In this document: piece after piece, positions 1 to 16,666 of the stretch | Layout of the letters: the number at the start of each line of letters is the position of its first letter | How positions within the stretch are numbered: the first letter of the stretch is position 1 | From: Candidatus Acetothermia bacterium | GTDB taxonomy: Bacteria > Bipolaricaulota > Bipolaricaulia > Bipolaricaulales > Bipolaricaulaceae | Reading direction: 5' to 3' | Assembly (NCBI GenBank): GCA_011057175.1 | Contig: DSBZ01000014.1 | Location: forward strand, 1 to 19,532 | Length of the DNA: 19,532 bases | Made by a program: the position numbers and the translations under genes | Notes under the pieces: generated by a model | Told to the model about the DNA's origin: nothing | Database searches by the model: none | Seen by the model: the letters and a program-made list of their open reading frames with translations, nothing else

Positions 1-835
1 CGTCCCGGGCCGCCCTGTCCACGTCCTTTCCCGCCCGGCCCGCCCGCACCGCGGCCAGGCCCGCGCGGTTGGCCTCGAGCACGACCCGGTACGCCTCACG
101 GGCCTCGCGCCCGGGATCGCCCACGGCCACGACCCGGGTCAGGTCCGAACAGTACCCATCGAGCCGAACGCCCACGTCGAACAGGACCACGTCCCCGCGG
201 GCGATCCTCCGCTCCCCAGGCCGGTAGTGGGGCATGGCGCTCCCCGGGCCGCTGGCGACGATGAGCTCGAACGCCACCCCGTCCGCCCCGTTGCGGCGGT
301 ACCAGACCTCGAGGTCGAGGGCCACCTCGCGCTCCCTCTGCCCCGGGGCAAGCCTCCCCACGATCCAGCGCAGGCCCTCATCGGTGAGCCTCGCCGCGTC
401 GGAGATCCGCGCGACCTCCTCGTCCGACTTGATCCTCCGCAGATTCTCGACCATCCCGATCCTGGGAATGAACTCGATCTCTGGGGCGAGCCGGCCGAGT
501 TCCTGATAGACGTGGAGGCTCGTTCGGTGGGCACCGAGCCCCACCCGTCTCACGCCAAGCGCAGTCAGCCTCTCGGCAAGCCAAGAGAGCCAATGACCTT
601 TCACTTCCTCAATGGGCACCCCCAGCACTTCCTTCCCCGCCTGTTCCGTATACCGAGAGTCGGTGGCGAAGAGGGGCTTCTCTCCCATGATCAGGCCCCC
701 CGTTGACCCTGTAAACCCAGTGAGGTACCGCAGATTCGCCTGGTCCGATCGTTCGAGGCTGATGATGAGGAACGCATCCAGCCCCTCATCCTGTAGCCTC
801 TGTCCCAGTTCCTCCCGCCGTCGCGCGTAGTCCAT
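1..835 (-). CDS. M24 family Xaa-Pro aminopeptidase/dipeptidase, 3'-truncated by window edge
   Basis: This frame is open from an ATG at 835 to the window edge, giving 278 residues with no stop. Residues 1-130 are the creatinase/prolidase N-terminal domain, with the family-typical LRYLTGFTGS (35-44) and the ATDSRY (57-62) motif. The pita-bread metallopeptidase domain starts near 135. It shows the substrate-binding histidine in MPHYRP (H203) and the first two metal-ligand aspartates in FDVGVRLDGYCSDLTR (D220, D231). The remaining ligands (His, Glu, Glu) would lie to the left of the window. The family removes N-terminal residues preceding proline, or splits Xaa-Pro dipeptides, using two divalent metals in the cytoplasm. 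The start is supported by AAGGGGG about 5 bases before the ATG. It is transcribed divergently from pheS. Aminopeptidase P and prolidase cannot be separated without the C-terminus. Confidence 0.93.
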   Translation of the reverse strand, partial: MDYARRREELGQRLQDEGLDAFLIISLERSDQANLRYLTGFTGSTGGLIMGEKPLFATDSRYTEQAGKEVLGVPIEEVKGHWLSWLAERLTALGVRRVGLGAHRTSLHVYQELGRLAPEIEFIPRIGMVENLRRIKSDEEVARISDAARLTDEGLRWIVGRLAPGQREREVALDLEVWYRRNGADGVAFELIVASGPGSAMPHYRPGERRIARGDVVLFDVGVRLDGYCSDLTRVVAVGDPGREAREAYRVVLEANRAGLAAVRAGRAGKDVDRAARD

Positions 836-924
836 TCGGCCCCCTTGTGAACCCCCGGACCCTGCTGGCCGCCTGGGTTGGAGCGTTCTACACGAGCGGA
901 GTCCCCGTGTCCAACCCAAGCTGT

Positions 925-943
925 GGATAGTATAATCCAGCCC
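925..943 (+). promoter_or_regulatory. pheS promoter -10 region, predicted leaderless; possible divergent -10 for the aminopeptidase
   Basis: A perfect TATAAT (931-936) ends 10 bases before the pheS ATG at 947. The usual start point, 6-8 bases downstream of the -10, would leave only about 4 bases of leader, and no Shine-Dalgarno lies between. The -35 is weak: TGTCCA at 908-913 matches 3 of 6 with a 17-base spacer. On the opposite strand TATACT (934 down to 929) matches the -10 consensus at 5 of 6 and could drive the divergent aminopeptidase. The site is flanked by GGAT/ATCC dyad arms (925-938). Confidence 0.65.
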
Positions 944-946
944 GCG

Positions 947-1948
947 ATGACGCTGGAAGAGCTGCGGGCGCGATGCGAGGAGGTCCGGAGGGAGTGGGCC
1001 CAAGCGAGCGCCTCGGCCCACGATCCGGAGGCCCTCGAGGCCCTGCGGGTTCGGTTCCTCGGCCGCAAGGGGGCGCTCGCGACGGCGTTTGACTCCCTGC
1101 GCACCCTGCCCGCCGAGGCCCGGGCCGCCGCCGGGAAGCTCCTCAACGCCCTCAAGGACGAGATCGCCGCGGCCCTGGAGGCCCGGCGGGCGGAGGTGGA
1201 GCGGGAGGCCCTCCAGGCCCGGCTCGCCGGGGAGCGGTACGACCTCACCCTGCCCGGGACCTGGCGGCCCCTCGGCCGCCTCCACCCCCTGACCCAGGTC
1301 CGCCGGGAGATCGAGGAGATCTTCCTCCGCCTTGGGTTCGACGTCGCCAGCGGCCCGGAGGTGGAGACGGACTACTACAACTTCGAGGCCCTCGCCATCG
1401 GGGCCGACCACCCCGCCCGCGACGAGTGGGACTCGTTCTACATCGCCGAGGGACTCCTCCTGCGCACCCACACGTCGCCCGTGCAGATCCGGGTCATGAA
1501 GTCCCAGCCTCCACCCGTGCGCATCATCTGCCCCGGCCGCTGCTACCGCCGGGACAACCCCGACGCCACCCACTCCCCGGTGTTCCACCAGATCGAGCTC
1601 TTGTGGGTGGAGAAGGGGCTCACGTTCGCCCACCTCAAGTGGATCCTCCGGGAGTTCGTGACCGCGTTCTTCGGCCCGGGGTACGAGATGCGCATCTCCG
1701 CGGACTTCTTCCCGTTCACCGAGCCCTCAGCCCAGGTCCACATCCGCAAGCCCCCCGGGGCGTGGCTGGAGATCATGGGAGCGGGGATGGTGGATCCGGC
1801 CGTGCTCACCGAGGTCGGTTGCGACCCGGAGGAGGTCACCGGGTTCGCGTTCGGGCTCGGGGTGGAGCGGATGGCGATGCTCCGGTGGGGGATCGAGGAC
1901 ATCCGCCTGTTCTATCAGAACGATATCCGGTTCCTGTCGCAGTTCTAG
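947..1948 (+). CDS. pheS: phenylalanine--tRNA ligase alpha subunit
   Basis: This 333-residue protein has the normal length for bacterial PheS, the catalytic subunit of the (alpha-beta)2 enzyme that charges tRNA-Phe in the cytoplasm. Residues 1-85 form the charged helical hairpin that binds tRNA. The class II core follows: GRLHPLTQ (110-117), GPEVETDYYNFEAL (136-149), motif 2 around GRCYRRDNPDATHSP (197-211) and motif 3 GFAFGLGVER (299-308). The frame is open further upstream to 878, but ATG 947 matches the normal N-terminus and sits 10 bases after a perfect TATAAT, so the mRNA is probably leaderless. The beta-subunit gene pheT, usually immediately downstream, is missing. After the TAG comes a structured non-coding stretch and then a gene on the other strand. 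Confidence 0.97.
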   Translation: MTLEELRARCEEVRREWAQASASAHDPEALEALRVRFLGRKGALATAFDSLRTLPAEARAAAGKLLNALKDEIAAALEARRAEVEREALQARLAGERYDLTLPGTWRPLGRLHPLTQVRREIEEIFLRLGFDVASGPEVETDYYNFEALAIGADHPARDEWDSFYIAEGLLLRTHTSPVQIRVMKSQPPPVRIICPGRCYRRDNPDATHSPVFHQIELLWVEKGLTFAHLKWILREFVTAFFGPGYEMRISADFFPFTEPSAQVHIRKPPGAWLEIMGAGMVDPAVLTEVGCDPEEVTGFAFGLGVERMAMLRWGIEDIRLFYQNDIRFLSQF

Positions 1949-1980
1949 TGATCCTGTCGCGGACACGGGACCGCGCCGGC

Positions 1981-2030
1981 CCGTGACCCGCAACCGCCCC
2001 GCCGGGCCGCCAACGACGGGCGGTTCACGG
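1981..2030. terminator. GC-rich inverted repeat between convergent pheS and nucleotidyltransferase gene
   Basis: AACCGCCC (1992-1999) pairs perfectly with GGGCGGTT (2018-2025) across an 18-base loop. An outer arm, CCGTGA (1981-1986) with TCACGG (2025-2030), shares one base with the inner stem and leaves a bulge on the left. The element lies in the 151-base gap between two convergent genes, where a bidirectional terminator is expected. There is no T-tract on either strand, so intrinsic termination is not proven. Alternative pairings such as GGCCCG (1978-1983) with CGGGCC (2003-2008) also exist. I see nothing else in 1949-2099. Confidence 0.35.
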
Positions 2031-2099
2031 TTCCTGCCGTGGGAGTCCGGTTCTCGCCGCGTCGCTTGAGGCTCCACGCCCGAGCGGCCCGAGGATCCC

Positions 2100-2872
2100 T
2101 CACCAAGCGCCCCAGGTGCGGAACGCGGCCTTCCCGTCCCCGCTGAGGAACGCCCAGCGGATGGGGCCCATCCGATCGTGGTGGAACGTCTCGCCCCGTG
2201 CATCGAGCCAGGCGTGGAGCCCATCCCGCACCGCCGTGATTCGATCCGAGGACGGAGCGGCAAGGAGATCGCCGGCCGCGCTGAGGATCCGCTCCGGGAC
2301 GCCGAGGAGCCGGAGCTCCTCTGCGGCCCAATGGCGGGTGGGGGCCCATGAGCCGCAGGCCAGGGCGAGGAGCTTCATCAGGGCCACCGCCCCCTCGCCG
2401 AGGACGAGCCGTGTGGCGAGATCGTTGTCGCGGTCGAGGCATTTGGCCGCCCGGCCAAGGGCGAACAAGGCCTCCAGGTAGTGGACCTTGAGGCGGGTCT
2501 TCTGCCCCTCGGGCGGGAGCACCGTGAGGCCGGGAAACAGGGCGGCAAGCTTGCCCTGCGGATCGTGCAGGATCGCTGGGTGCTGGAAGGGGTAGTGGTC
2601 GAGGTCGAGGGGGGAGCGCTCCATCGCCCGAAGCTCCCTCCACGGCCGGAGGTAGAACTCGTGATCCACCCGCCGCGGCGGGCCCTCGTCGATCGCGAAC
2701 ACGTGCCGCTCCTCAAGCCCGGTCCGCTCGTAGGCTGCGTCGTCGAGCGCGACCTCGCTGTCGTAGTCGGAGATCCGGTCCGGAACGGCCGGCTCGCCGA
2801 CCCGACGAGGTAGATCCCCATCACCCCTGGCCGGCCGACGTAGGTCTGTGCGAGTCCCCGTGCTCGATCCAT
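2100..2872 (-). pseudogene. nucleotidyltransferase-domain protein, interrupted by a one-base frameshift
   Basis: Two minus-strand frames together give one plausible protein. From ATG 2872 the first frame reads 30 residues ending GIYLVGSASRPF. A second frame then continues DRISDYDSEVALDDAAYER from 2780 to the TGA at 2100. One missing base at about 2781-2783 separates them, and restoring it gives about 257 residues. The join matters because it rebuilds a polymerase-beta-type nucleotidyltransferase signature: GS, ten residues, then the metal-binding DYD. Such domains transfer nucleotides to small molecules, proteins or tRNA; the C-terminal part is alpha-helical and I do not recognise its substrate. 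A weak -10-like TAGGAT lies 6 bases before the ATG. It could be a true pseudogene, a sequencing or assembly error, or programmed frameshifting. Family assignment (MNT-like or DUF4037-like) is tentative. Confidence 0.7.
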
Positions 2873-3032
2873 GGCCGAATCCTAGCCGCAGGAGCGGACA
2901 CGATCCTTCACCCAGGCGACGGCGAGGCGAGAACGCGATGGGAGGGGAACGCCGAGGCGAGGCCCTGCATGAACCGATCCCCGGAACCTTCGGCTCCGCA
3001 AGAGATCAGGTTCAGCGGTGAAGGGGCTGGAC

Positions 3033-3614
3033 ATGGGGTACCATGCCATCATGGGGCACGGCAACCTGATGTTCTGGATCGCGGCGGCCCGCGCGGTGGG
3101 CCTGGTCGTGACGGGGATCCTCGGGGCGAAGCCGCCGCTTCAGGCGGTGCACGAGCTCGACCTCACCCGCTACCTCGGGACGTGGTACGCGGTGGCGAGC
3201 ATCCCCACCACGTTCGAACGAAACTGCACCCGGGGGACCACCGCCACCTACACCCTCCTCCCGAACGGGCAGATCGACGTCTTCAACGTGTGCTATTCGG
3301 CGGACGGGCGGAGGATCGAGGCCCGCGCCCAGGCCTGGGTCCCCGACCCGAAGGCCCCCGCCAACCTCAAGGTGAGCTTCGTCAACTTCCTCGGCCTGCG
3401 CTTCTTCCCCGCCGACTACTGGGTGATCGACCTCGCGCCGGACTACACCTACGCCGTGGTTGGCTACCCCATTCGGAACTACGGCTGGATCCTCCCCCGC
3501 ACCCCGACCCTCCCGCAGGAAGTCCTCGCCGGGATCCAGCAGCGCCTCGCGGCGCAGCACTACGATTGGTCGCGGTTCCGGATGATCGACCCGACGACCC
3601 ATGTCCAGCCATGA
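3033..3614 (+). CDS. Blc-type lipocalin, probably exported
   Basis: This 193-residue protein has a hydrophobic N-terminus (about residues 11-32) followed by a bacterial lipocalin (Blc/apolipoprotein D-like) domain. The key lipocalin motif is LTRYLGTWYAVASIP (44-58), with GTWY at 49-52. Later blocks DYWVIDLAPDYTYAVVGYP (128-146) and the GWILPRTPTL turn (151-160) are typical of Blc. C65 and C87 could form a disulfide. Blc proteins bind lipids in the cell envelope. Unlike E. coli Blc there is no lipobox cysteine, so this one is probably soluble in the periplasm or membrane-anchored by its N-terminus. ATG 3033 was chosen over GTG 3018 and ATG 3051 because AAGGGG (3021-3026) lies 6 bases upstream. 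It overlaps the next gene by 14 bases. Confidence 0.85.
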   Translation: MGYHAIMGHGNLMFWIAAARAVGLVVTGILGAKPPLQAVHELDLTRYLGTWYAVASIPTTFERNCTRGTTATYTLLPNGQIDVFNVCYSADGRRIEARAQAWVPDPKAPANLKVSFVNFLGLRFFPADYWVIDLAPDYTYAVVGYPIRNYGWILPRTPTLPQEVLAGIQQRLAAQHYDWSRFRMIDPTTHVQP

Positions 3615-4077
3615 TGCGGCCGAAGGTCGTGCGGGGAGGTACGACCGGATCCACGCCCAGCTCCGCGATCTGATCGTTGGGAACTCGCCGAACCTCATCG
3701 CGGCGATGGCCACCGTGTGCGCGGTCCTGCACGCAAAGATGCCCCACCATTCTTGGACCGGGTTCTACTTGGTCGCCGAACACGAGCTCCACGTCGGCCC
3801 TTACCAGGGACCCGTGGCGTGCCAGGTCCTGCGGGGAGAGGGCGTGTGCATCGCTTGCTGGCGCAGTGCCCAGCCCGTGGTCGTGCCCGATGTTCGGCTC
3901 TTCCCAGGCCACGTCCCCTGCGACCCCCGCGCCCAGAGCGAGATCGCCCTTCCGGTGATGAAGGAGGGCCGCGTGGTGGCGGTGTTCGATGCCGACTCCC
4001 ACCAGCCAGCGCAGTTCACCACTGCCGATGTGGATCCCCTGCGGAAGATCCTCGCCCTCCTCGACACGTACCTGTGA
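3601..4077 (+). CDS. msrC: free methionine-(R)-sulfoxide reductase, GAF-domain (fRMsr/MsrC)
   Basis: This 158-residue single-GAF-domain protein has the usual length for fRMsr, which reduces free methionine-R-sulfoxide in the cytoplasm using thioredoxin. All three cysteines typical of the E. coli family are present: C74 in GPYQGPVAC, C83 in GEGVC and C107 in FPGHVPCD, the last expected to be catalytic. Acidic substrate-binding residues are also kept: E114 in SEIALP, and D130 and D132 in VFDADS. ATG 3601 lies inside the end of the lipocalin gene (14-base overlap) without a clear Shine-Dalgarno, so translation is probably coupled. The pairing puts an envelope lipid-binding protein together with an oxidised-methionine repair enzyme, suggesting a small oxidative-stress or envelope-stress operon. 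That link is an inference. Confidence 0.93.
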   Translation: MSSHDAAEGRAGRYDRIHAQLRDLIVGNSPNLIAAMATVCAVLHAKMPHHSWTGFYLVAEHELHVGPYQGPVACQVLRGEGVCIACWRSAQPVVVPDVRLFPGHVPCDPRAQSEIALPVMKEGRVVAVFDADSHQPAQFTTADVDPLRKILALLDTYL

Positions 4078-4119
4078 CGACACGCCGATTGCGTCTAGGC
4101 ATGCCGGCCCTCGAGGGTG

Positions 4120-4162
4120 TATAATGGGTATCGCCCACGGGATAAGGTCGTGGGAGAGGAGG
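4120..4162 (+). promoter_or_regulatory. promoter -10 and strong Shine-Dalgarno for the beta-rich exported protein
   Basis: A perfect TATAAT (4120-4125) is followed by about 42 bases to the ATG at 4168, with AGGAGG (4157-4162) spaced 5 bases from the start. The -35 is not convincing: TTGCGT at 4089 is too far away. Unlike the three leaderless-type sites in this window, this promoter yields a leader of about 36 bases with a strong ribosome-binding site. Confidence 0.6.
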
Positions 4163-4167
4163 AACCG

Positions 4168-5271
4168 ATGAAGAGAAACATCGTGTTTCTGGTGGGTGTG
4201 GTGGTGGGCAGTGCGTTGAGCGGGGCAGGAGCGATCGGGCTATGCGACTACAAGCCGCCGCTCACCGACCTCACCAGCGCATGGCTCTCGGGAACCTACC
4301 GGTACTTCGATGCACCGACAACGCCGGGGGTCGACGTCAACGCGGGCCGGGCCACGGCCAACTTCAGCAGGCTCTACGATTCACCAGGCTTCGGGTACAC
4401 GCTGTCCGGCCTTGGCGAACTCGGGTTCGCAGACCTCGCCCTCGCCAGTGCTACGGCGAGCGGGTCCGGCACCCTGCGCTACTACTTCGTCGAGGGGGAG
4501 CCCGTGTTCGGGTTCGCCGGCCTCAACGCGGGGCATGTCCTCGGACAGCCCAAGCCGGCGCTGACGGTGAGCGTCGGAGGCGGCTACGGACGGTTCGCCG
4601 ACGTGACTCCCCTCGCCAAGGCAATGCGAATCCAGACCATCCTCCTCGGCCGCGGACAGATCACGGAGGCGCTGCCCGATGCCACGCTCCTCGCCGTCGC
4701 TGCGGAGATCGGCCGGGCGATCGAGTATGCCGAGACCGAGGACCTCGTGGCGGCCGTGGTCGGCCTGATCGAGAACGCTGCCGGGACGAGCCTCGATCCC
4801 CGCACCGTGCTCGCCGTGGAGGACGAGGTCCTCGCCACAGGGGCAGAGCGGTACTGCGGTTGGGCCATCCAGGCCGGCCTCGGCTACGAGCTCGCCGACC
4901 CCTATGGCGGGCCTCAGGATGTCGTGGTGACCGTCTCCACGGACGCGGCCTATGCCCCGGGACCGGATGCCCAGCTCCTCCTCCGCGCTGTGGCGGAGGG
5001 GCCGTTTGACCTCGTCAACCAACACACCCTCACCGCGAACTTGTCCTACGAGCAAGGGCTGAGCGCGACCTCGTCCCTCCAGGGGAGCGTCGCCTACAGG
5101 CGGGTAAAGCCCCTTGACCTCGACCCCGTAGACTCGGTCTCGATGACCGTACAGGTCGCGTTCTCCCTCGGACGGGCCACCGTCGGGGTCAGCCTCGGGC
5201 TGAGCAGAGCTCCCGGCGCGGCAGAGTGGACCAAGGACCTGAGCATCTCGTTCGCGATGAAGCTCCTCTAG
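4168..5271 (+). CDS. exported beta-rich protein, possible outer-membrane or periplasmic protein
   Basis: This 367-residue protein has a clear signal peptide: MKR, a hydrophobic core at about 4-20, and a cleavage region near ALSGAGA (about 16-22). The mature part has many alternating polar/hydrophobic, glycine- and tyrosine-rich stretches (for example GYTLSGLGELGFADLAL, FSLGRATVGVSLGLS and the C-terminal LSISFAMKLL). These look like amphipathic beta-strands of an outer-membrane barrel. A central section (about residues 150-225) is more helical and acidic, so this may not be a simple barrel. I recognise no named family or catalytic motif. The start is fixed by AGGAGG 5 bases upstream and by the signal peptide; the upstream in-frame GTG at 4117 is not needed. 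It has the best-formed expression signals in the window, so it may be abundant. Confidence 0.72.
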   Translation: MKRNIVFLVGVVVGSALSGAGAIGLCDYKPPLTDLTSAWLSGTYRYFDAPTTPGVDVNAGRATANFSRLYDSPGFGYTLSGLGELGFADLALASATASGSGTLRYYFVEGEPVFGFAGLNAGHVLGQPKPALTVSVGGGYGRFADVTPLAKAMRIQTILLGRGQITEALPDATLLAVAAEIGRAIEYAETEDLVAAVVGLIENAAGTSLDPRTVLAVEDEVLATGAERYCGWAIQAGLGYELADPYGGPQDVVVTVSTDAAYAPGPDAQLLLRAVAEGPFDLVNQHTLTANLSYEQGLSATSSLQGSVAYRRVKPLDLDPVDSVSMTVQVAFSLGRATVGVSLGLSRAPGAAEWTKDLSISFAMKLL

Positions 5272-5301
5272 CGGGCGGACCAGATAGGTGATGCATACGG
5301 A

Positions 5302-5326
5302 GGGCGTCGTCGCTCGGACGGCGCCC
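5302..5326. terminator. hairpin between convergent genes, possible bidirectional terminator
   Basis: GGGCGTCGT (5302-5310) pairs with ACGGCGCCC (5318-5326): nine pairs including one G-T wobble, with a 7-base loop. It lies in the 81-base gap between the end of the exported protein (plus) and the end of the amidotransferase remnant (minus). There is no T-tract on either side, so it may stabilise 3' ends or act with Rho. Confidence 0.4.
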
Positions 5327-5352
5327 AGCCTTGTGCGGAGGGGCAGGCCCGC

Positions 5353-5679
5353 TCAAGAGGTGACGGAAACCCGTGACACCTCCAGACCCGGTTCGACCCA
5401 CAGGAGATCCCCGTTCCGCAGCGCCTGCCAGCCGGGGCGGCCATCGGTCCGCTCGGAGGCGACGACCACTTCGTCGACATCCACGCGCCACCAGAGCGTG
5501 TAGTACTCAGGATCGGTCGTGTATTGGCAGAGGGCAACGAGGGACCGCCCCTCGAAGAGGAGGAGGTTGAGCGCGGTGTAGTCGCGGACGAGGCGGAGGA
5601 GGGAGCGGAGGGCCTCCGCCAGTCCCACGACGTCCCGGGGCTGCCACGCCGCGACCAGCGACCCGAGGAGACAGCACAT
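5353..5679 (-). pseudogene. C-terminal remnant of a class II glutamine amidotransferase (YafJ/GATase_4 type)
   Basis: The 108 residues resemble only the last part of class II glutamine amidotransferases of about 250-280 residues. RDYTALNLLLFEGRSLVAL (32-50) matches the LNFLLTDG-type strand pair, YYTLWWR (59-65) follows, and VVVASERTDGRPGWQALRNG (71-90) matches the conserved 'VVASEPL...W..L.NG' end. The N-terminal nucleophile domain and its His/Arg/Asn motifs are absent. The first residues, MCCLLG, look like the MCRLLG start of full-length members, but the following sequence corresponds to a helix much nearer the C-terminus, so the likeness may be chance. The ORF starts 9 bases after the flavoprotein stop and in the same frame. 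It could be a truncated pseudogene or a reused small domain. Activity as an amidotransferase is not expected. Confidence 0.6.
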
Positions 5680-5688
5680 CCGTCCCCG

Positions 5689-6279
5689 TCACTCCTCGAT
5701 GGCGGCGGCGAGGAGCCACCCCAGCTCCGCCGCCCCCGCAAGCGGCCTGTCCGGGGCTTCGGCGAGGTCCCCGCACCCGGCTGCCCCGTAGTACGGGTAG
5801 CCCCTGCGCAGGACGGGGCTCATGCGCGTGGACAGGATGAACCCGTGTAGGTAACGGAACACATCGAAAGGATCGCTTCCCCCCGTCGCCACGACGAGGG
5901 CGCACGGCTTGTCCTCGAGGAGGTGGGCCGATTTGTGCTTCCTCAGGTCGTGGAAATAGGCGAGGCAGACCACCCGCTCGCAGAGGGCGACGAGCCGCGA
6001 CGGAATGGGGTAATAGAGGGGCGATCCGATCACGAGCCCGTCCGCCTCTTCCAGCCGCTGGAGGAGACCCGGGAAGTCGTCCTTGACCACGCACTTGTAG
6101 GGGGTCTTGGAACACAGCTCGTAGCAACCCTGACAGGGTCCGACTTCGAGCGCCGAGAGGTGCACGACCTGGGTTCTGATCTTGGGCTTGGCGTCCCGGA
6201 CCGCGCCGAGGACCGCCTCCACCAGCCGGCTCGTGTTTCCATCCTTGCGCATCGAACCAACGATGCCGACCACCTTCAT
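5689..6279 (-). CDS. iron-sulfur flavoprotein-like NAD(P)H-dependent FMN reductase family protein
   Basis: This 196-residue flavodoxin-fold protein begins MKVVGIVGSMRKDGNTSRLV. The GSxRKxGNTS loop binds the FMN phosphate. A cysteine cluster follows: C49, C52, C56 and C63 (C-x2-C-x3-C-x6-C), at the place where archaeal and bacterial iron-sulfur flavoproteins carry their [4Fe-4S] motif. Then come the DDF (67-69) and VIGSPLYY (83-90) segments typical of the family. Such proteins shuttle electrons between ferredoxin or thiol donors and small acceptors such as oxygen, peroxide or quinones. The spacing of the second and third cysteines is one residue longer than in the Methanosarcina protein as I recall it, so cluster binding is likely but unproven. 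GGAGGT 6 bases before the ATG supports the start. It is third in the DUF6485-polX operon. Confidence 0.83.
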   Translation of the reverse strand: MKVVGIVGSMRKDGNTSRLVEAVLGAVRDAKPKIRTQVVHLSALEVGPCQGCYELCSKTPYKCVVKDDFPGLLQRLEEADGLVIGSPLYYPIPSRLVALCERVVCLAYFHDLRKHKSAHLLEDKPCALVVATGGSDPFDVFRYLHGFILSTRMSPVLRRGYPYYGAAGCGDLAEAPDRPLAGAAELGWLLAAAIEE

Positions 6280-6339
6280 CGCACCACCTCCACGGCCGCA
6301 GGGTACCGCGGCCCGGCTGCGGGGAGCAAACCCCGCGCC

Positions 6340-8055
6340 TCATCGCCCCCGCTTGCGGGCGGCGAGGAGCTCGTCCACTGAACGCGTGTTCAAGAGGTGC
6401 TCCGCCGTCGCCCAACCCCGCCGCGCGGTGATCGCCCCCAGCTCGAGGAAATCGAGATGGGATTCGATGTGGGCATCGGTCCCGATCGTCAGCCGGACGC
6501 CGAACCCGATCGCCCGGCGAATGAGCTCCGCGCCGAGGTCGAGCCGTTGCGGATGTGCGTTCACTTCGAGCGCCGTCCCGGCCTTCGCCGCGCGACGAAA
6601 GACCTCGTCCCAGTCCGCTTCATAGGGGGGACGTTCCCCGATCAGGCGCCCGGTGGGATGGCCGAGCACGTCCACCGCCTCGTCCTCCACGGCCCGCACG
6701 ATGCGTTCCGTCATCTCCTTCCTCCCGAGGCGAAAGTGGGTGTGCACCGAGGCGATCACGAGGTCGAGGTCGCGGAGGAGGGATCGCGGGACATCCACCG
6801 TCCCGTCCCGGGCGATGTTTGCCTCAACGCCCGTCAGGATCCGCACTTCCTTCGTGGCCTCACCCAACCGGCGCACGTCCTCAATCTGGCGCCGCAGATC
6901 GTTGGGGGAGAGGCCAGGGATGGCCGCGGCGAACTTGAGGTGATCGGTGATCGCGATGCAGTGGAGCTTCCGCGCCGCCGCAGCGCGAGCGAGCTCAGGC
7001 AGGCTGATCTCTCCATCCGACCAGTCGCTGTGGACGTGGAGGTCACAACGGATCTCCGAAAGGTCCACAAGGACCGGGAGCGCACCCCTCTCCGCGGCGG
7101 CGATCTCCCCTTGATCCTCGCGCAGCTCGGGCGGGATGTAGTCCAGGCCAAGGGCCCGGTAGATCCCCGCTTCATCGGAGCCAGCGAGGGTCTCCCCCTC
7201 CTCCGAGAAGAGGCCGTACTCGGAAAGCTTCCACCCTCGGGCGGCGGCCCGTTCGCGCAGCCGGATGTTGTGCTCCTTCGAACCCGTGAAGTACTGGAGG
7301 GCTGCTCCGAACGCAGCAGCAGGCACGATGCGCAGATCCACCTGAAATCCGTCGGAGAGCCGGACCGACGACCGTTTCGCCCCCCGTGCCAACACCTCCA
7401 CGGCATCGGGCAGCGCACAGAACGCCTGCGCCGCCTCCTCCGGTCGGTCGGAGACGGCAAGGAGGTCGAGGTCCCCCACCGTCTCCTTGCCCCGCCGCAG
7501 GGATCCCGCGGGCTCCAGCCGCCGAAAGAGCCCCGTTGTCGCTAGGTGCTTCATGAGGTCGCGCGCGAGCGGCAGCGCTCGCCCAAGGAGAAGCCGCTGT
7601 TCGACCCCCTTCCTCTCCCGGAGGCCACGCCGGATCCTCTGCTCCATCTTCTCCCCCAACCCCTTCACATCGCGGATCCGTCCCTCCCGCGCTGCCCGTT
7701 CGAGGTCGGCCAGGGATTTCACCCCCAGCTCCCTGTACAGCAAGCGGGCCGTTTTCGGGCCCACCCCGGCGATCCCGGTGAGGGCCCGCAGGTCCACGGG
7801 GAGCTTCTCCTTCAGCTGTTCGTGGTAGGCGAGCTTGCCCGTGGCCACGATCTCCGCGATCTTCGCGGCGATCGAGGCCCCGACTCCGGGGAGGTCGCCG
7901 ATGCGACCGGAGGCGACGAGTTCCTCAACCGGGGTCGGACAATCCTCCACTGCCCGCGCTGCCCGCCGGTAGGCACGGGGCTTGAACGGGACATCGGCCA
8001 GCTCAAGGAGATCGGCGACCTCATCGAGGATCCTCGCCACGAGGGCGTTTTTCAT
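6340..8055 (-). CDS. polX: DNA polymerase/3'-5' exonuclease PolX
   Basis: At 571 residues this has the standard length for bacterial PolX, a family X repair polymerase fused to a PHP nuclease. Helix-hairpin-helix segments lie at about 53-62 (LPGVGASIAA) and 94-105 (GIAGVGPKTARL). The nucleotidyltransferase palm has GSLRRGKETVGDLDLL (184-199) with catalytic D195 and D197, and the third aspartate D240 in QVDLR. The PHP domain begins at CDLHVHSDWSDG (337-348) and continues with TDH (370-372), E411 in GVEAN, SVHTHF (436-441), GHP (465-467) and GTDAH (525-529), so its metal ligands look intact. It fills short gaps and cleans 3' ends during base-excision repair. ATG 8055 overlaps the TGA of the preceding small gene as ATGA, fixing the start and indicating coupled translation. 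Confidence 0.96.
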   Translation of the reverse strand: MKNALVARILDEVADLLELADVPFKPRAYRRAARAVEDCPTPVEELVASGRIGDLPGVGASIAAKIAEIVATGKLAYHEQLKEKLPVDLRALTGIAGVGPKTARLLYRELGVKSLADLERAAREGRIRDVKGLGEKMEQRIRRGLRERKGVEQRLLLGRALPLARDLMKHLATTGLFRRLEPAGSLRRGKETVGDLDLLAVSDRPEEAAQAFCALPDAVEVLARGAKRSSVRLSDGFQVDLRIVPAAAFGAALQYFTGSKEHNIRLRERAAARGWKLSEYGLFSEEGETLAGSDEAGIYRALGLDYIPPELREDQGEIAAAERGALPVLVDLSEIRCDLHVHSDWSDGEISLPELARAAAARKLHCIAITDHLKFAAAIPGLSPNDLRRQIEDVRRLGEATKEVRILTGVEANIARDGTVDVPRSLLRDLDLVIASVHTHFRLGRKEMTERIVRAVEDEAVDVLGHPTGRLIGERPPYEADWDEVFRRAAKAGTALEVNAHPQRLDLGAELIRRAIGFGVRLTIGTDAHIESHLDFLELGAITARRGWATAEHLLNTRSVDELLAARKRGR

Positions 8056-8249
8056 CGGTGGAGGCTGACGAAGCGGCGGAACGACCGGTCGTAGGTTCGC
8101 TCCACCTCCGGCGGGAAACAGCATGCGGGGAGCTCATCCTGGGACAGGTGGTAAGCCAGGCATGCGCAGCAACTCCCCTTCCGCGGACAGCTCGGCCACG
8201 TACAGGGACATCGCTCCAGGTTCGCCTCTACGTTCGGACAGGTCTCCAT
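8052..8249 (-). CDS. small cysteine-rich protein, DUF6485-like
   Basis: This 65-residue protein has nine cysteines: C4, C14, C16, C21, C27, C28, C30, C43 and C44. The layout, CPN near the start, then ERCPCTWPSCPRKGSCCACL, YH and LPACCFP, matches the DUF6485 family of small proteins found mainly in anaerobic bacteria and archaea. The cysteines probably bind zinc or an iron-sulfur cluster; no function is established that I know of. Shine-Dalgarno AAAGGAG lies 5 bases before the ATG. Its stop overlaps the polX start (ATGA), so both are made from one message, suggesting but not proving a DNA-repair or redox role. Confidence 0.85.
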   Translation of the reverse strand: METCPNVEANLERCPCTWPSCPRKGSCCACLAYHLSQDELPACCFPPEVERTYDRSFRRFVSLHR

Positions 8250-8283
8250 CGTTCTCCTTTCGAGGTCGAGGGAAGGTCACGGC

Positions 8284-8298
8284 TATAATGCCGAAGCC
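8284..8298 (+). promoter_or_regulatory. -10 element of the phosphodiesterase-cupin-mnmA operon, predicted leaderless; possible shared divergent -10
   Basis: A perfect TATAAT (8284-8289) ends 9 bases before ATG 8299, with no Shine-Dalgarno between and no convincing -35. The expected transcript start is 2-4 bases before the ATG. On the minus strand CATTAT (8290 down to 8285) matches the -10 consensus at 4 of 6, keeping the key second A and last T, and would give the DUF6485-polX message a leader of about 30 bases containing AAAGGAG. Confidence 0.62.
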
Positions 8299-9519
8299 AT
8301 GACGAATGGGCAACAGGTACTCCAGCGGATCGTGAATGACACAGGCGGCCAGCGCCCCCACTACGAGCGGTACTCCCTCCTCGCCTTCCCGGCGACGATC
8401 GAGTCCTTGTTCGGCCTTCCCGCCTCCGGCCCAAGCCTCCAGGAGGAGCTCGGCCTCCCTCCGGCGGAGGTCGTGGTGAGCGTGATCGTGGATGGATTGG
8501 GCTACCGAAGCCTCGAGGCTTTGCTCAAGCGAGGGGTCGTGGACCTCAGCCCGTTCCTCGATGGGGGAAGCTACCTCCCCCTCACCTCGGTGTTCCCCTC
8601 GACCACCACTGCCGCCCTCGCCTCGCTCGCCACCGGAGCGAGCCCGATCCGCCATGGGGTGTTGGGGTACAAGCTGTTCCGTCCCGATGTGGGATCGATC
8701 GTGGAGATGATCCGCCTCACGACCCCTGGCGGGCGGGACAACGCCCTGGAGAAGCTGGGCCTCCCCCCTGAGCAGATCATTGCTGGGTCCACCCTCTACG
8801 AGAGGCTGACCGCGGCCGGGGTGACAACGACCCTGCTCCTGCCCAAGTACATCGCGGACTCGGGGCTGTCCAAGGCCCTGTACAGAGGGGTGACGCGGAC
8901 CGTCCCCTACCTCACCTCATCCGATCTCGTCATGCACCTCGGCCACGGCCTGGCCCACCGCGGGAGAACCCTCCTCTCCGTGTACTGGCCATCCACGGAC
9001 AGCCTTGGCCACGTCTATGGCCCGACGACCGAGGCGTTCGAGCTCGAGGTGGCGCTCGTGTTCCGCGTGCTGAGCCAGGTCCTCGACATGCTCCCCCGCC
9101 GGGCGACCCTCCTCGTCACCGCGGACCACGGGTTCCATGAGGCCGATCCGGTGAAGGACATGGTGGACTGCTCCGCCCAGCCGGCGCTGCGGGAGGGGCT
9201 CCTCCTTCCCCCGGTGGGGGATCCGCGGGCCTCGTATCTTTTCGTGCGGCGGGGGCACGAACGGGCGGTGACGGAGTTCTTCTCCCGGTTCTTCCCCCAG
9301 GAGTTCACCGTATTCACCGTGGAGGAGGCCCTGGCCCGGAACCTGTGGGGGCTCGAGGAACCGACCCCCGCCGCGCGGGTCCTGCTCGGGGACCTCCTCG
9401 TCCTGTCGTGCAAGCGGAGGTTCCTCCTCTGGCCGACCGAGGAGTTCAAGCTGCATGGCCTCCACGGGGCCCTGACCCCGGATGAGCTCTACGTCCCCTT
9501 GCTCGCCCGAGCGGCATGA
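8299..9519 (+). CDS. alkaline phosphatase superfamily protein, type I phosphodiesterase/nucleotide pyrophosphatase-like
   Basis: This 406-residue protein has no signal peptide. The two-metal alkaline-phosphatase fold is shown by D65 in VIVDGLGY, the nucleophile threonine in VFPSTTTAAL (T102 or T103), D234 and H238 in STDSLGHVYG, D276 and H277 in TADHG, and a C-terminal histidine in the LHGLHGALTPDEL block. These are the metal and nucleophile positions of nucleotide pyrophosphatase/phosphodiesterases. The family hydrolyses phosphodiester or phosphomonoester bonds; the substrate cannot be told from sequence, and nucleotides or nucleotide-sugars are the usual possibilities. It lies first in an operon with a cupin 11 bases downstream and mnmA after that. 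The start is set by the TATAAT 9 bases upstream and the absence of a Shine-Dalgarno, so it is predicted to be leaderless. Confidence 0.88.
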   Translation: MTNGQQVLQRIVNDTGGQRPHYERYSLLAFPATIESLFGLPASGPSLQEELGLPPAEVVVSVIVDGLGYRSLEALLKRGVVDLSPFLDGGSYLPLTSVFPSTTTAALASLATGASPIRHGVLGYKLFRPDVGSIVEMIRLTTPGGRDNALEKLGLPPEQIIAGSTLYERLTAAGVTTTLLLPKYIADSGLSKALYRGVTRTVPYLTSSDLVMHLGHGLAHRGRTLLSVYWPSTDSLGHVYGPTTEAFELEVALVFRVLSQVLDMLPRRATLLVTADHGFHEADPVKDMVDCSAQPALREGLLLPPVGDPRASYLFVRRGHERAVTEFFSRFFPQEFTVFTVEEALARNLWGLEEPTPAARVLLGDLLVLSCKRRFLLWPTEEFKLHGLHGALTPDELYVPLLARAA

Positions 9520-9530
9520 AGGAGGAGCCG

Positions 9531-9884
9531 ATGGTGATCGTGAAGGAGATGTCCGAGGTCCCAGCGATGGACGTGTCCCACGGGACGGAGGTCGTGGGGG
9601 CCATGAAGCGCGTCCTCATCGGCCCAGCGGACCACGCCCCCACCTTCGCAGTGCGCCTGTTCACGCTCGCTCCCGGCGGCCACACCCCCTTCCACAGCCA
9701 CCCCTTCGAACACGGCGTGATCGTCCTGCGTGGGGCAGGAACGGTGCTCACAGCGATGGGTCCCCGCGCGATCGGTGAGGGAAGCGTGGTGTTTGTCCCC
9801 CCGGGGGAGCGCCACCAGTTCCGGAACGCAGGGTCCATCCCCCTCCAGTTCCTGTGCATCGTGCCCGTGGGGGTCGAGGCGTAA
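9531..9884 (+). CDS. single-domain cupin protein
   Basis: This 117-residue conserved beta-barrel protein has cupin motif 1 in GGHTPFHSHPFEHGVIVLRG (49-68), with metal-ligand candidates H55, H57 and H61 (E60 adjacent). Motif 2 is VPPGERHQFRN (89-99) with H95. Small cupins bind a metal and act as isomerases, dioxygenases or ligand sensors; nothing here identifies the substrate. ATG 9531 was chosen because AAGGAGGAG (9519-9527) sits 5 bases upstream. An in-frame ATG at 9516 overlaps the previous stop as ATGA and would add five residues. The gene lies 5 bases ahead of mnmA in a tight operon. Confidence 0.87.
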   Translation: MVIVKEMSEVPAMDVSHGTEVVGAMKRVLIGPADHAPTFAVRLFTLAPGGHTPFHSHPFEHGVIVLRGAGTVLTAMGPRAIGEGSVVFVPPGERHQFRNAGSIPLQFLCIVPVGVEA

Positions 9885-9889
9885 CCGGG

Positions 9890-10939
9890 ATGAAGAGGAC
9901 CGCGCTCGTCGGCTTATCGGGGGGGGTGGACTCCACCGTCGCTGCCCATCTCCTCAAGGAAGACGGGTACGAGGTCCACGGGCTCACCCTGTGGCTATGG
10001 GATTCGCGAGGGAGTGAGAACCCCTGCTGCTCCGTAGACGGAGCGGCCCTCGCCGCGCGGGAGCTGGGGATCCCCCACGAGGTGGTCCCCGCGGAGCGGG
10101 AGTTCCGGGCGCTCGTCGTGGAGCCAGCGCTCAATGCCTACCGGCGTGGGCTCACCCCAAATCCCTGCACCGTCTGCAACCGCGTGGTACGGTTCTCCCT
10201 CCTCCTCCGGGAGGCGGATCGGAGGGGGATCGAGTTCGTGGCCACAGGCCATCACGCCCGCGTCCGCCGCACCGCGGGCCGCGCCCACCTCCTGCGTGGG
10301 GCAGATCCAGTCAAGGACCAATCGTACTTCCTGTACGCTCTCGGCCAGAGGGAACTCGCCCGCGCCCTGTTTCCCGTGGGAGAGAAAACGAAGCGGGACA
10401 TCCGATCCCTCGCCGCATCGTTGGGCCTGACCGCGGCCCAGCGCCGCGAAAGCCAGGACCTGTGCTTCGCTCCAGCGGGCGTCCCGGCCCTCATCGCGGA
10501 TGCGCGGCCCGGCCCGATCCTCGACCTCTCCGGCCGCGAAGTCGGGGAGCACAGGGGCCTCCCCCACTACACGATCGGCCAGCGGCGAGGCCTAGGGTTG
10601 CCCTCACCGGAACCCCTGTACGTGGTGGCCCTCGATGGGACGAGAAACGCAGTGATCGTGGGGCCGGAACGGGCTCTCTATTCCGAAGAACTCGTCGCGG
10701 GCGAGCTCGCCTGGATCGCGGGCCGGCCGCCGGGAGGCCGCTTTTCAGCCGAGGTTCAGGTGCGGTACCGCGGCGCCGCGATCCCGGCGGAGGTCAAGGC
10801 TGCGGGAGAGACGGCCCAGGTCCGGTTCAGCCAGCCGATGCGAGCGATCACCCCCGGCCAGGCGGCGGTGATCTACGGCGGAGAGGAGGTCCTGGGCGGC
10901 GGGACCATCGTCCGCGCTACCTCGGGCTCACTCCGGTAG
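9890..10939 (+). CDS. mnmA: tRNA-specific 2-thiouridylase MnmA
   Basis: This 349-residue protein makes the 2-thio group of U34 in tRNA-Lys, -Glu and -Gln. The ATP-binding PP-loop is GLSGGVDSTVAAHLL (8-22). The catalytic region is TPNPCTVCNRVVRF (89-102) with C93 and C96. The ATGHHARV tRNA-contact block lies at 118-125, KDQSYFLY at 142-149, and the second catalytic cysteine is C192 in ESQDLCF. The C-terminal beta-barrel starts with YTIGQRRGLGL. A cysteine (C93) occupies the position that is aspartate (D99) in E. coli MnmA, a known variant. ATG 9890 lies 5 bases after the cupin stop; an in-frame upstream start at 9854 would overlap the cupin and is not needed. The last 12 bases overlap the convergent permease gene. 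Confidence 0.96.
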   Translation: MKRTALVGLSGGVDSTVAAHLLKEDGYEVHGLTLWLWDSRGSENPCCSVDGAALAARELGIPHEVVPAEREFRALVVEPALNAYRRGLTPNPCTVCNRVVRFSLLLREADRRGIEFVATGHHARVRRTAGRAHLLRGADPVKDQSYFLYALGQRELARALFPVGEKTKRDIRSLAASLGLTAAQRRESQDLCFAPAGVPALIADARPGPILDLSGREVGEHRGLPHYTIGQRRGLGLPSPEPLYVVALDGTRNAVIVGPERALYSEELVAGELAWIAGRPPGGRFSAEVQVRYRGAAIPAEVKAAGETAQVRFSQPMRAITPGQAAVIYGGEEVLGGGTIVRATSGSLR

Positions 10940-11794
10940 GGGAACCCCCGCGAGCTGCGGATCGAGCGCGTCCCGCAGGCCTTCCCCGAACAGGTTCATA
11001 GCCAGGACGAACAGGAGGATGGCGATCCCGGGGAACGTGGAGATCCACCACCCCCGGAACAGGTAGTCGCGCCCGTCAGCAATGATCGTCCCCCAGCTCG
11101 CCTGCGGGGGCTGGATCCCCAGGCCGAGGAAGGACAGCGACGCCTCCATCAGGACAACCCATCCCACCCGCAAGGTCCCGACGACGATCGCCGACGGGAT
11201 GACGTTCGGCAGCAGGTGGAAGAACAGAATCCGCGCCGGGGATGCCCCACTGGCGCGGGCCGCCTCCACGAACGCGGCCCCCTTGAGGGCGAACACCTCG
11301 CTGCGCACGATCCGGCACGAAGTGACCCATTCCTTGACCGCCAGCGCCACCACCATGTTCGCGAACCCCTGACCGAACAGGGCCATCAGCGAGATGGCCA
11401 TCACCAGGTACGGGAACGCCAGCAACACGTCCACAGTGCGCTGGATCGCCGTGTCCACCCATCCCCCCACGTAGCCCGAGATGAGCCCGAGGGTGACGCC
11501 AACCACGGTGCACAGGCTGATCACCACGAGCCCCAACGAGATCGAGACCCGCGATCCGGCGATGATCCGGCTCAGGATGTCCCGCCCGAGGTTGTCCGTC
11601 CCCAACGGGTGCTGCCACATCCCGCGTTCGCCTACGGCAGGCGGCCGCAGGCGGAGGGAGAGGTCGCCGCGCGCCGGGTCGTGGGGAGCGATCTGGGGAG
11701 CGAACAGGGCCATGAAGGCGAACAGGAAGACGACGATCGCCCCCCCCACGGCGGGCCGGTTTCTGAGGAACGCGTTCCAAGACCGGCGGATCAT
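10928..11794 (-). CDS. dppC: dipeptide/oligopeptide-type ABC transporter permease, DppC/OppC family
   Basis: This 288-residue inner-membrane permease has the first membrane helix at about 17-36, then the OppC-type block HPLGTDNLGRDILSRIIAGS (62-81), several more helices, and the EAA loop EAARASGASPARILFFHLLPN (177-197) that contacts the ATPase. SFLGLGIQPPQASWG (221-235) is diagnostic of the DppC/OppC/NikC family. It pairs with the upstream DppB-like permease to carry substrate delivered by the binding protein. Its ATG overlaps the dppB stop as ATGA, indicating coupled translation. Its 3' end overlaps convergent mnmA by 12 bases. No ATPase gene follows, so the ATPases must be encoded elsewhere. 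The substrate (peptides or another ligand of this importer class) is not determined by the permease sequence. Confidence 0.94.
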   Translation of the reverse strand: MIRRSWNAFLRNRPAVGGAIVVFLFAFMALFAPQIAPHDPARGDLSLRLRPPAVGERGMWQHPLGTDNLGRDILSRIIAGSRVSISLGLVVISLCTVVGVTLGLISGYVGGWVDTAIQRTVDVLLAFPYLVMAISLMALFGQGFANMVVALAVKEWVTSCRIVRSEVFALKGAAFVEAARASGASPARILFFHLLPNVIPSAIVVGTLRVGWVVLMEASLSFLGLGIQPPQASWGTIIADGRDYLFRGWWISTFPGIAILLFVLAMNLFGEGLRDALDPQLAGVPLPE

Positions 11795-12813: not shown

Positions 12814-12831
12814 GTGCTGGAGAGAGGATGA

Positions 12832-12854
12832 GGAGGGGCGGCCAGCGCCCCTCC
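12832..12854 (-). terminator. perfect intercistronic hairpin between binding-protein and permease genes
   Basis: GGAGGGGCG (12832-12840) and CGCCCCTCC (12846-12854) form nine perfect pairs with a 5-base loop. It sits in the 51-base gap between the dppA stop and the dppB GTG. On the transcribed minus strand the right arm is followed by TCATCCTCTC, which has no proper T-run, so partial termination or protection of the dppA mRNA 3' end is more likely than full termination. Confidence 0.55.
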
Positions 12855-12864
12855 CCGAACCGGA

Positions 12865-14397: not shown

Positions 14398-14400
14398 CTC

Positions 14401-14475
14401 TCCCTCCTTGCGTTAGGGTAAGGAATGGCGATTGCATCAGGGGGGAGTCCGTGTCCGTCTCACCTCCCTTGCGTT
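14401..14475 (-). repeat. imperfect direct repeat in the dppA leader, containing the Shine-Dalgarno
   Basis: On the minus strand AACGCAAGG occurs twice, at 14414 down to 14406 and 14475 down to 14467, offset by 61 bases. It is followed by purine-rich AGGGAGAGA and GAGGTGAGA respectively (3 mismatches in 18 aligned bases). The proximal copy contains the dppA ribosome-binding site. The distal copy also looks like a Shine-Dalgarno but no clear gene follows it. It may be a duplicated leader or a binding site. The 173 bases between dppA and the DUF3467 gene hold nothing else I can name. Confidence 0.4.
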
Positions 14476-14570
14476 GGGATGGCCGCCGCATCCAGCATAG
14501 CGGTCGACCTCTCCCTCCGCAAGGGGCGGCCGCAGGGCTACCAGCAGAGGCTTGCTCCCCGGGGCCGGGA

Positions 14571-14912: not shown

Positions 14913-14940
14913 TTGGCCTGCGGAAGGGATTTCGTATAAT
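14913..14940 (+). promoter_or_regulatory. ABC exporter promoter, predicted leaderless
   Basis: TTGGCC (14913-14918, 4 of 6 to the -35 consensus) is followed after 16 bases by a perfect TATAAT (14935-14940), which ends 10 bases before ATG 14951. The 10 bases between are C-rich with no Shine-Dalgarno. On the minus strand GATTAT (14941 down to 14936) is a possible divergent -10 for the DUF3467 gene, at 4 of 6. Confidence 0.65.
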
Positions 14941-14950
14941 CCCGCTCCCC

Positions 14951-16666
14951 ATGCGCGGCATCCTCCGAGAGCTGTGGCGGTACCGGTGGCGCCTGCTCAC
15001 AGGCGTCCTCGCTTTGTTCGTGGTCGATGCCCTCCAGCTCATCGCCCCGCTCATCGTGCGGAGCGCAGTGAACGACCTCGTCGCCGGAACCGGGGCGAGC
15101 CTCGTCCGCTACGCCCTTTACCTCGTCGGGATCGCCGTCGTCGTGTTCGGGTTCCGGTTCGCCTGGCGGATCCTCCTCTTCGGTGCCGGGCGGCTCATCG
15201 AACGGGACATGCGCAGCCGCCTCTACGCCCATCTCCTCACTCTCTCCCCCGCCTACTACGTCGAGCGCTCCACCGGCGACTTGATGGCCCACGCCACGAA
15301 CGACCTCGAGGCCGTCCGCCGCTCATGCAGCATGGGCGTCCTCATGGCCTCCGACGCGGTAATCATGATCTCATTCTCTCTCGTGGCGACGGTCGGGATC
15401 TCGCCGCTCCTCACCCTGTACGCGTTCATCCCGCTTCCGTTCATCACCCTCGCCGTGATGGGGTTTGGCCGCCTCATCCACCGCCGGTTCGAGCGGGCCC
15501 AGGCCGCCTTCTCCGCCCTCACCGAACGGGTGCGGGAGGCCCTGTCCGGGATCCGGGTCCTCAGGGCGTTCGCCCGGGAGGGGGGGATCGAGGGGGCCTT
15601 CGCCGTCACCAATCGCGAGAATGTGGACGCGAACCTTGCCCTCACGCGGGCGTGGGGCGTGTTCGAGCCGATGGTCGGGCTACTGGCGGGCCTCGGGACG
15701 GCGATCGTCGTCTGGTTCGGAGGGAGGGGCGTCCTCGGCGGCACGCTGAGCCTGGGGGACCTCGTGGCGTTCACGAGCTACCTCGGGATGATGGTGTGGC
15801 CAATGATGGCGATCGGCTGGATCGTGAACACGCTGCAACAGGGGGCAGCATCCATGAAACGGCTGGACAGGATCTTCGCCGAGCAGCCGGACATCACGAG
15901 CCCGGCGGCCCCCCACCCGCTGCCCCCCTCGCGGCGGATCGAGTTTCGCGATCTCACATTCTCCTACCCCGGGACGGATCGCCCCGCGCTGCGGGACGTG
16001 AACTTGGTCGTTGAGGAGGGGATGACACTGGGGATCGTCGGCCTCACCGGATCGGGCAAGTCGACCCTCGTCCGGCTCCTGCCGCGCCTCTACGACCCGC
16101 CGCCGGGGACGGTGTTCCTCGGCGGGGTCGACATCCGCCGGCTTGACCTCGCGGAGCTGCGCGGGCAGGTCGGGATGGTCCCCCAGGACGTGTTCCTCTT
16201 CTCGGCCTCGGTGCGGGAGAACATCGCCTATGGCCGTCCCGAGGCGAGCGAGGACGAGGTCCGTGAAGCGGCGCGTCTCGCCGGCCTGGCCGAGGAGATC
16301 GCGTCGTTTCCCGACGGCCTGGACACGCTGGTGGGCGAGCGGGGGGTGACCCTGTCCGGCGGCCAACGCCAACGGGTCGGGATCGCCCGGGCCCTCCTCC
16401 TCGACGCGCCGATCCTCATCCTCGATGACGTCCTGTCCGCGGTGGACGCCCAAGTCGAGGAGGCGATCCTTGGCCACCTGCAGGGTGTCCTGCGGCGACG
16501 AACGGCGATCGTCGTCTCCCACCGCATCACCGCGGTTCGCAAGGCAGACCAGATCATCGTCCTCGACGGGGGGCGGATCGTCGAAGAGGGCGACCACAGC
16601 CGCCTCGTACGCCAGGGCGGGCTCTACGCGCGGCTGAACGAACTCCAGCAGGCTCTCGTGCGATGA
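14951..16666 (+). CDS. ABC exporter subunit with degenerate catalytic glutamate (TM287-like half of a heterodimer)
   Basis: This 571-residue half-transporter has a six-helix membrane domain (about 12-300) followed by an ATPase domain (about 330-571). Walker A is GLTGSGKST (364-372), Q-loop Q412, signature LSGGQRQR (468-475), Walker B ILILDD (488-493) and H-loop H524. The catalytic glutamate after Walker B is aspartate (D493), while the signature is canonical. This combination marks the degenerate-site subunit of heterodimeric exporters such as TM287/288, BmrCD and TmrAB. The partner follows directly, overlapping as ATGA. Such exporters move lipids, drugs or peptides out of the inner membrane; the substrate here is unknown. 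A TATAAT 10 bases before ATG and the lack of a Shine-Dalgarno predict leaderless initiation. Confidence 0.95.
   Translation: MRGILRELWRYRWRLLTGVLALFVVDALQLIAPLIVRSAVNDLVAGTGASLVRYALYLVGIAVVVFGFRFAWRILLFGAGRLIERDMRSRLYAHLLTLSPAYYVERSTGDLMAHATNDLEAVRRSCSMGVLMASDAVIMISFSLVATVGISPLLTLYAFIPLPFITLAVMGFGRLIHRRFERAQAAFSALTERVREALSGIRVLRAFAREGGIEGAFAVTNRENVDANLALTRAWGVFEPMVGLLAGLGTAIVVWFGGRGVLGGTLSLGDLVAFTSYLGMMVWPMMAIGWIVNTLQQGAASMKRLDRIFAEQPDITSPAAPHPLPPSRRIEFRDLTFSYPGTDRPALRDVNLVVEEGMTLGIVGLTGSGKSTLVRLLPRLYDPPPGTVFLGGVDIRRLDLAELRGQVGMVPQDVFLFSASVRENIAYGRPEASEDEVREAARLAGLAEEIASFPDGLDTLVGERGVTLSGGQRQRVGIARALLLDAPILILDDVLSAVDAQVEEAILGHLQGVLRRRTAIVVSHRITAVRKADQIIVLDGGRIVEEGDHSRLVRQGGLYARLNELQQALVR

Follow-up and report, generated by a model that had tools for sequence, protein, structure and literature searches.

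Genes of the uncultured bacterium studied here, and of the family to which it belongs, are very probably served in part by sigma70-type promoters lying so near the coding sequence that the mRNA would begin at the start codon or 1–4 bases before it. The window, by which we mean the whole stretch of DNA that was analysed, comprises 19,532 nt of a Bipolaricaulota MAG (Candidatus Acetothermia bacterium, GCA_011057175.1, contig DSBZ01000014.1, positions 1–19,532, forward strand); its family is labelled f1 in the present comparisons, and the best 11 relatives of its pheS among the 80 loci kept came from Candidatus Bipolaricaulota/Acetothermia MAGs. An earlier note on this DNA had reported a TATAAT 9–10 bases before the ATG of three genes, and the observation is real: the gap is 10 bases for pheS, 9 for a phosphodiesterase gene and 10 for an ABC exporter gene (Table 1). 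In all, TATAAT occurs four times in the window, always on the plus strand, whereas dinucleotide shuffles of the window held a mean of 0.28 copies and 0 of 200 reached four. The interpretation offered in the earlier note is partly supported, being right for the most part.

Table 1. Features of the window, with the basis on which each was assigned.
Feature	Position	Strand	Basis
−35-like element of pheS, TGTCCA, 17 bases before the −10, 3/6 consensus bases	908..913	+	orthologue rows
−10 element TATAAT of pheS	931..936	+	sequence, orthologue rows
10-base spacer, pheS −10 to ATG	937..946	+	position by sequence
pheS, phenylalanine–tRNA ligase alpha subunit	947..1948	+	TIGR00468, 328.7 bits (cut-off 237.45)
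TATAAT of an ordinary led gene (contrast case), 42 bases before ATG 4168	4120..4125	+	sequence
−10 element TATAAT of phosphodiesterase operon	8284..8289	+	orthologue rows
9-base spacer GCCGAAGCC	8290..8298	+	outline conserved across genera (by eye)
Type I phosphodiesterase / nucleotide pyrophosphatase family protein, operon head	8299..9519	+	PF01663, 84.5 bits (cut-off 23)
Cupin gene, phosphodiesterase operon	9516..9884		profile match
mnmA, phosphodiesterase operon	9890..10939		profile match
−35-like TTGGCC, 16 bases before exporter −10, 4/6 consensus bases	14913..14918	+	sequence
−10 element TATAAT of ABC exporter operon	14935..14940	+	sequence
10-base spacer CCCGCTCCCC	14941..14950	+	sequence
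ABC exporter half-transporter, leading an overlapping gene pair	14951..16666	+	PF00664 + PF00005
Second half-exporter gene, overlapping the first	16663..18741		gene layout

The three genes had been taken for operon heads, which agrees with the gene layout, as the upstream neighbour is divergent in every case (the distance to the start called for pheS, the phosphodiesterase gene and the exporter gene being 87, 243 and 98 bases respectively). They had also been said to lack a Shine–Dalgarno (SD) sequence, and an SD-like core at −15 to −5 was indeed absent from all three; among the orthologue rows it was found in 0/30 for pheS, 0/29 for the phosphodiesterase and 1/30 for the exporter (L217). Likewise, the gene chosen as a contrast does have its TATAAT further upstream and an AGGAGG at 4157–4162. 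The description of the spacers as C-rich suited pheS (6 of 10 bases) and the exporter (8 of 10) but fitted the phosphodiesterase less well (4 of 9). pheS is an essential gene, and its place in the leaderless-type class bears out the statement that the class includes one. Relatives of pheS align from residue 1; the coding-score caller, a script of our own, set the start at GTG 923. A TATACT on the minus strand (929–934) overlaps the pheS −10, so that the divergent peptidase-like gene (2–835, minus strand) may share an overlapping −10; by eye, this TATACT is not kept in most relatives. pheT does not follow pheS, the next called gene (2100–2702) being on the opposite strand. Elsewhere in the window, a TACCAT stands 6 bases before ATG 3051 of an ORF that is lipocalin-like by eye (3039–3053, plus strand); this ORF, for which the coding-score start is GTG 3018, is possibly a fourth leaderless gene of the window.

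For each of the three genes, 30 loci were kept as orthologue rows, from 86, 83 and 100/100 phylum genomes with a match (pheS, phosphodiesterase and exporter respectively); as the loci kept from larger match sets they are mostly of family f1, and one phosphodiesterase locus in which the start was missing was dropped, leaving 29 rows. TANNNT was present at a gap of 6–10 in 27/30 pheS rows, the other three having TATATC in its place. The best −35 match reached at least 3/6 in 23 of the 27 pheS rows with a −10, and TGTCCA or TTGTCA was found at a spacer of 16–18 in 11/30. For the phosphodiesterase the exact TATAAT was kept in 29/29 rows, down to 50% protein identity, at a gap of 9 (23 rows) or 10 (6 rows); no convincing −35 was found for this gene, a match of at least 4/6 occurring in 1/29 rows. 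The outline of GCCGAAGCC was kept across genera despite diverged flanks (window 8282–8301, L158–L187), which exceeds the need of promoter spacing alone. Exporter orthologues had gaps of 9 (1 row), 10 (2), 11 (19) and 12 (7), with 22/30 at 6–11 and a −35 match of at least 4/6 in 9 of the 29 rows with a −10; the single row without a near box (L216, family f6) has, by eye, a TATAAT about 50 bases upstream. That the distance was kept while the flanks diverged argues for selection, the exporter being the least tightly kept case.

The peak of TANNNT relative to start codons that the earlier note had anticipated was present in a sample of 37% of the genome (41 stretches, 506,073 bases). Genes were called by our own script; a 5th-order model gave 493 and a 4th-order model 496; removal of 19 that were truncated at the 5′ edge left 477, made up of 214 unit heads (genes whose neighbour is on the opposite strand or, if on the same strand, over 50 bases away), 241 inner genes and 22 unclassed at contig edges. 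Gaps were taken from TANNNT to an in-frame ATG, for all ATGs lying no more than 150 bases before or 60 bases after the called start. Among the unit heads, gaps of 0–5 were found 1, 0, 1, 1, 1 and 1 times, gaps of 6–10 were found 8, 11, 7, 9 and 4 times and a gap of 11 once, giving a shelf that begins abruptly at 6 and ends abruptly at 10. By gene, 38/214 heads (17.8%) had TANNNT 6–10 bases before ATG, against 5.8 in shuffled upstream sequence, and 46 (21.5%) when GTG at 6–7 was included; own inner genes gave 6 against 5.4. The excess was smaller against the 13–40 base background (39 matches versus 13.4), which itself holds promoters. TANNNT ranked first of 64 XYNNNZ patterns for enrichment at gap 6–10. 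An SD core, with a visible SD peak, preceded 261/477 genes; SD initiation is the commoner mode, and a leaderless-type minority mode beside it is well supported. The earlier view that the arrangement is routine in this organism stood for TANNNT but was rejected for the perfect box, as the 1.38 Mb assembly contains no more than 8 copies of TATAATN{6,10}ATG, 3 of them in the window (binomial P 1.5e-4, for a window singled out for them); since perfect TATAAT at 6–10 is rare, the routine form is TANNNT. In the same genome, outside the window, TATAATCTAATCGGAGGTCGTCGATG is present as two identical, oppositely oriented copies some 15 kb from each other (G000:C1:7128–7153, plus; 22240–22265, minus), with close variants in relatives, and may represent a gene present more than once or a mobile element.

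The signal extended to the family. Four other f1 genomes (200 kb each) gave 27, 19, 16 and 17 matches versus 5.0, 5.5, 5.0 and 5.2, or by gene 76/373 heads against 10.2 shuffled. With the five genomes pooled, ATG at 6–10 plus GTG at 6–7, a GTG class defined after the data had been seen, accounted for 142/587 heads (the two parts came to 16.9 and 7.0 in shuffles), which with background allowed for gives an estimate of about 15–20% of unit heads. Pooled inner genes gave 23 matches at 6–10 in 565 genes and mostly 1–5 per position beyond; the clearest inner excess was in genome G020 (8 versus 2.0), and such matches are perhaps operon-internal promoters. TTG was found 16–18 bases before the −10 in 41/118 shelf ATG matches and at a spacing of 11–13 in 0/118. 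Over 40 genomes of the family, TATAATN{6,10}ATG outnumbered the N{13,17} form by 645 to 283, being the more frequent in 38/40. The anti-SD sequence TGGATCACCTCCTTTC was present in 30/40 family genomes, and the family does not fit the pattern of organisms that do without SDs and whose anti-SD is altered, the 16S 3′ end lacking CCTCC; an exact match to TGGATCACCTCCTTTC was absent from the own assembly, perhaps because the 16S end is missing. As controls, 200 kb of Escherichia coli K-12 gave 6 matches versus 14.5 shuffled in 113 heads, below the shuffle, and 400 kb of plasmid DNA from Deinococcus, a known leaderless group, gave 33 versus 9.6 in 188 heads.

Uniformity across the phylum was rejected, as the gene-anchored test gave a weaker signal, or none, in other families: matches at gaps 6–10 against expectation were 6/6.8 and 9/9.5 in two f9 genomes (G070 and G094), 18/15.4 in an f7 genome (G060) and 18/14.5 in an f5 genome (G057). 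Against shuffles, the same two f9 genomes gave 15/7.7 for ATG and 9/2.2 for GTG. In a whole-genome test using TATAAT only, 6–10 exceeded 13–17 in 10/10 genomes of f4, 31/33 of f9, 5/5 of f7, 2/2 of f6, 1/1 each of f3 and f5 (ratios 1.12 and 1.15) and 1/2 of f8, but was not favoured in f2 (3/6 genomes; 327/340). This suggests near-ATG TATAAT at a lower level in most other families, f2 excepted.

The spacing signal with its edges, its strong bias to unit heads, its conservation and the ATG/GTG difference are read directly from sequence; where transcription starts, how long the leader is and how the ribosome engages are inferred. RNA polymerase would open at TATAAT or TANNNT and start about 7 or more bases downstream; there would be no room for an SD on the mRNA, and translation would begin on a codon that lies at the 5′ end or beside it, the ribosome that does this in other bacteria being mostly the undissociated 70S. 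In the family, this mode would serve the share of transcription-unit heads estimated above. In E. coli the favoured start is 7 bp after the −10, the polymerase rarely starting over 2 bp beyond its modal position, and a CCT discriminator shifts the start from 7 to 9 bp (PMC5730371). On this preference a gap of 6–7, which is found in part of the class, would put the codon at the 5′ end, and a gap of 9–10, as in the window genes at the far edge of the shelf, would give a leader of about 1–4 bases provided that the start is not shifted by a C-rich discriminator; for pheS, a start near 943–947 is predicted. Because gaps of 9–10 are larger than the 6–7 of strict leaderless genes, leaders of 1–4 bases are likelier than none, and the window genes are probably near-leaderless rather than strictly leaderless, close to the leader of 2–5 bases in the earlier note. 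pheS and the phosphodiesterase gene would fall in a sub-class with gaps of 8–10; the exporter lies on its outer edge, most of its orthologues being beyond the shelf at 11–12. Tuning by the discriminator (G-rich at 6–7, C-rich at 8–10) was rejected, G minus C showing no relation to gap (Spearman −0.09, P 0.32), as was a −3 purine as the start of a 3-base leader (49/71 at gaps 8–10 versus 222/313 for SD-led genes, P 0.77). A pyrimidine at −2 was commoner at gaps 8–10 (52/71 versus 167/313 SD-led, P 0.002).

The two start codons differed in spacing. In the 587 pooled heads, gaps of 6, 7, 8, 9 and 10 were found 22, 25, 27, 27 and 17 times for ATG and 21, 11, 3, 4 and 7 times for GTG; by gene, the ratio of 6–7 to 8–10 was 47/70 for ATG and 32/14 for GTG (P 9e-4). 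The three pheS rows with a GTG start have gaps of 7, 6 and 6; an exception is phosphodiesterase row L174, with GTG at gap 9. A whole-genome repeat agreed (ATG 185/460, GTG 188/194, P 6e-11), although it is non-independent, overlapping the sampled genomes, is unanchored to real starts and counts orthologues many times, and its GTG 8–10 count includes, by eye, many GAGGTG Shine–Dalgarnos. Judged from the sequences, ATG across gaps 6–10 beside GTG confined to 6–7 is possibly new: at gap 6–7 either codon would serve, and at 8–10 mostly ATG. We put forward tentatively, at a little under even likelihood, that the commoner leaderless-type mRNA of the family has 1–4 bases before AUG and that GUG is tolerated only at the extreme 5′ end.

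How far the leader shrinks is the point on which the nearest rival differs. Transcription might start on the A of the ATG even at gaps 8–10, pyrimidine-rich discriminators pushing the start downstream, so that all of these mRNAs would be strictly leaderless. The CCT shift in E. coli (PMC5730371) is in keeping with this, and the spacers of pheS and the exporter begin with CCA and CCC; the model nevertheless requires starts 10–11 bases past the −10, although the polymerase seldom goes over 2 bp beyond its modal position, and discriminator composition was unrelated to gap. GTG, moreover, is not found at gaps 8–10 as it is at 6–7, which a preference of the polymerase for A could also explain. We regard strict leaderlessness throughout as rather unlikely, though it has a real claim, and favour leaders of 1–4 bases at the wider gaps.

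Weak −35 elements, above all that of the phosphodiesterase, count against the favoured reading, as do the smaller excess over the 13–40 base background, the matches at inner genes, the exporter orthologues beyond the shelf and the weak or negative samples of other families. The genes could instead be ordinary ones with a longer SD-less leader from a promoter further upstream, the −10-like box being unused. The 216/477 starts without an SD core (by subtraction) mean that SD-less led starts may exist, but the sharp 6–10 shelf, the unit-head bias, TTG at the right spacing and the conservation in orthologues make this improbable. Still less credible is that the start codons are wrong and the true starts lie further downstream behind an SD: single starts are uncertain, given that the coding-score caller was off for pheS, yet relatives of pheS and the exporter align from residue 1 or 2–4 and the distance from box to ATG is kept in orthologues. 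Chance clustering of TATAAT near ATG in one window, for which the window's outlying share of the perfect copies in the assembly might speak, is refuted as a full explanation by the excess in the four other genomes and by the orthologue conservation, and has next to no probability left. Promoters set close against the start codon remain the preferred reading.

If the commoner mRNAs do carry 1–4 bases before AUG and GUG is confined to the extreme 5′ end, one bacterium would have two classes of 5′-proximal initiation and ribosomes that accept an AUG near the 5′ terminus as well as at it. The distance from the 5′ end that a start codon may have becomes testable through the differing spacing of ATG and GTG. 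The range of leaderless-type expression would be widened to Bipolaricaulota and would take in a gene for an aminoacyl-tRNA synthetase. Software that relies on an SD to place starts may set them wrongly in such genes; the coding-score caller used here was itself off for pheS. The mode itself is known, in a phylum for which the literature searched contained no report of it, figures of the PMC12340547 survey aside; the unusually broad spacing is possibly the one new element. The list of bacterial groups with leaderless genes in PMC3160421 does not name Bipolaricaulota.

Bacterial leaderless (TA-led) genes are marked by TANNNT at a fixed short distance from the start codon, beyond chance, and by the lack of an SD; the first is seen in this genome and its family, the second in the three window genes and all but one of their orthologue rows. 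In PMC12340547, a survey of upstream motifs across bacterial phyla, leaderless genes adjacent to a −10 motif make up about 30% of ORFs on average in Deinococcus–Thermus. There, as here, TANNNT immediately precedes the start codon and genes with an SD form a second class (PMC12340547, PMC3160421); the Deinococcus–Thermus motif, however, lies about 6–7 bp from the ORF, whereas the Bipolaricaulota ATG class is flat from 6 to 9–10. The same script gave the Deinococcus plasmid a sharp peak at gap 6 (16 matches, then 4, 5, 4 and 4), and the ratio of gap 6 to 8–10 was 16/13 there and 22/71 in f1 (P 0.0025). Mycobacterial leaderless mRNAs (PMC4633059) resemble these in starting with ATG or GTG and lacking an SD, but must have that codon at the mRNA 5′ end, from which most of the ATG class here is apparently offset. 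Comparable too are the very short 5′ leaders of haloarchaea, with a few bases before the start, AUG efficient and GUG poor (PMC4574771); haloarchaea differ in their archaeal promoter and ribosome and, in the same source, in favouring −3A, where a −3 purine is unspecific here.
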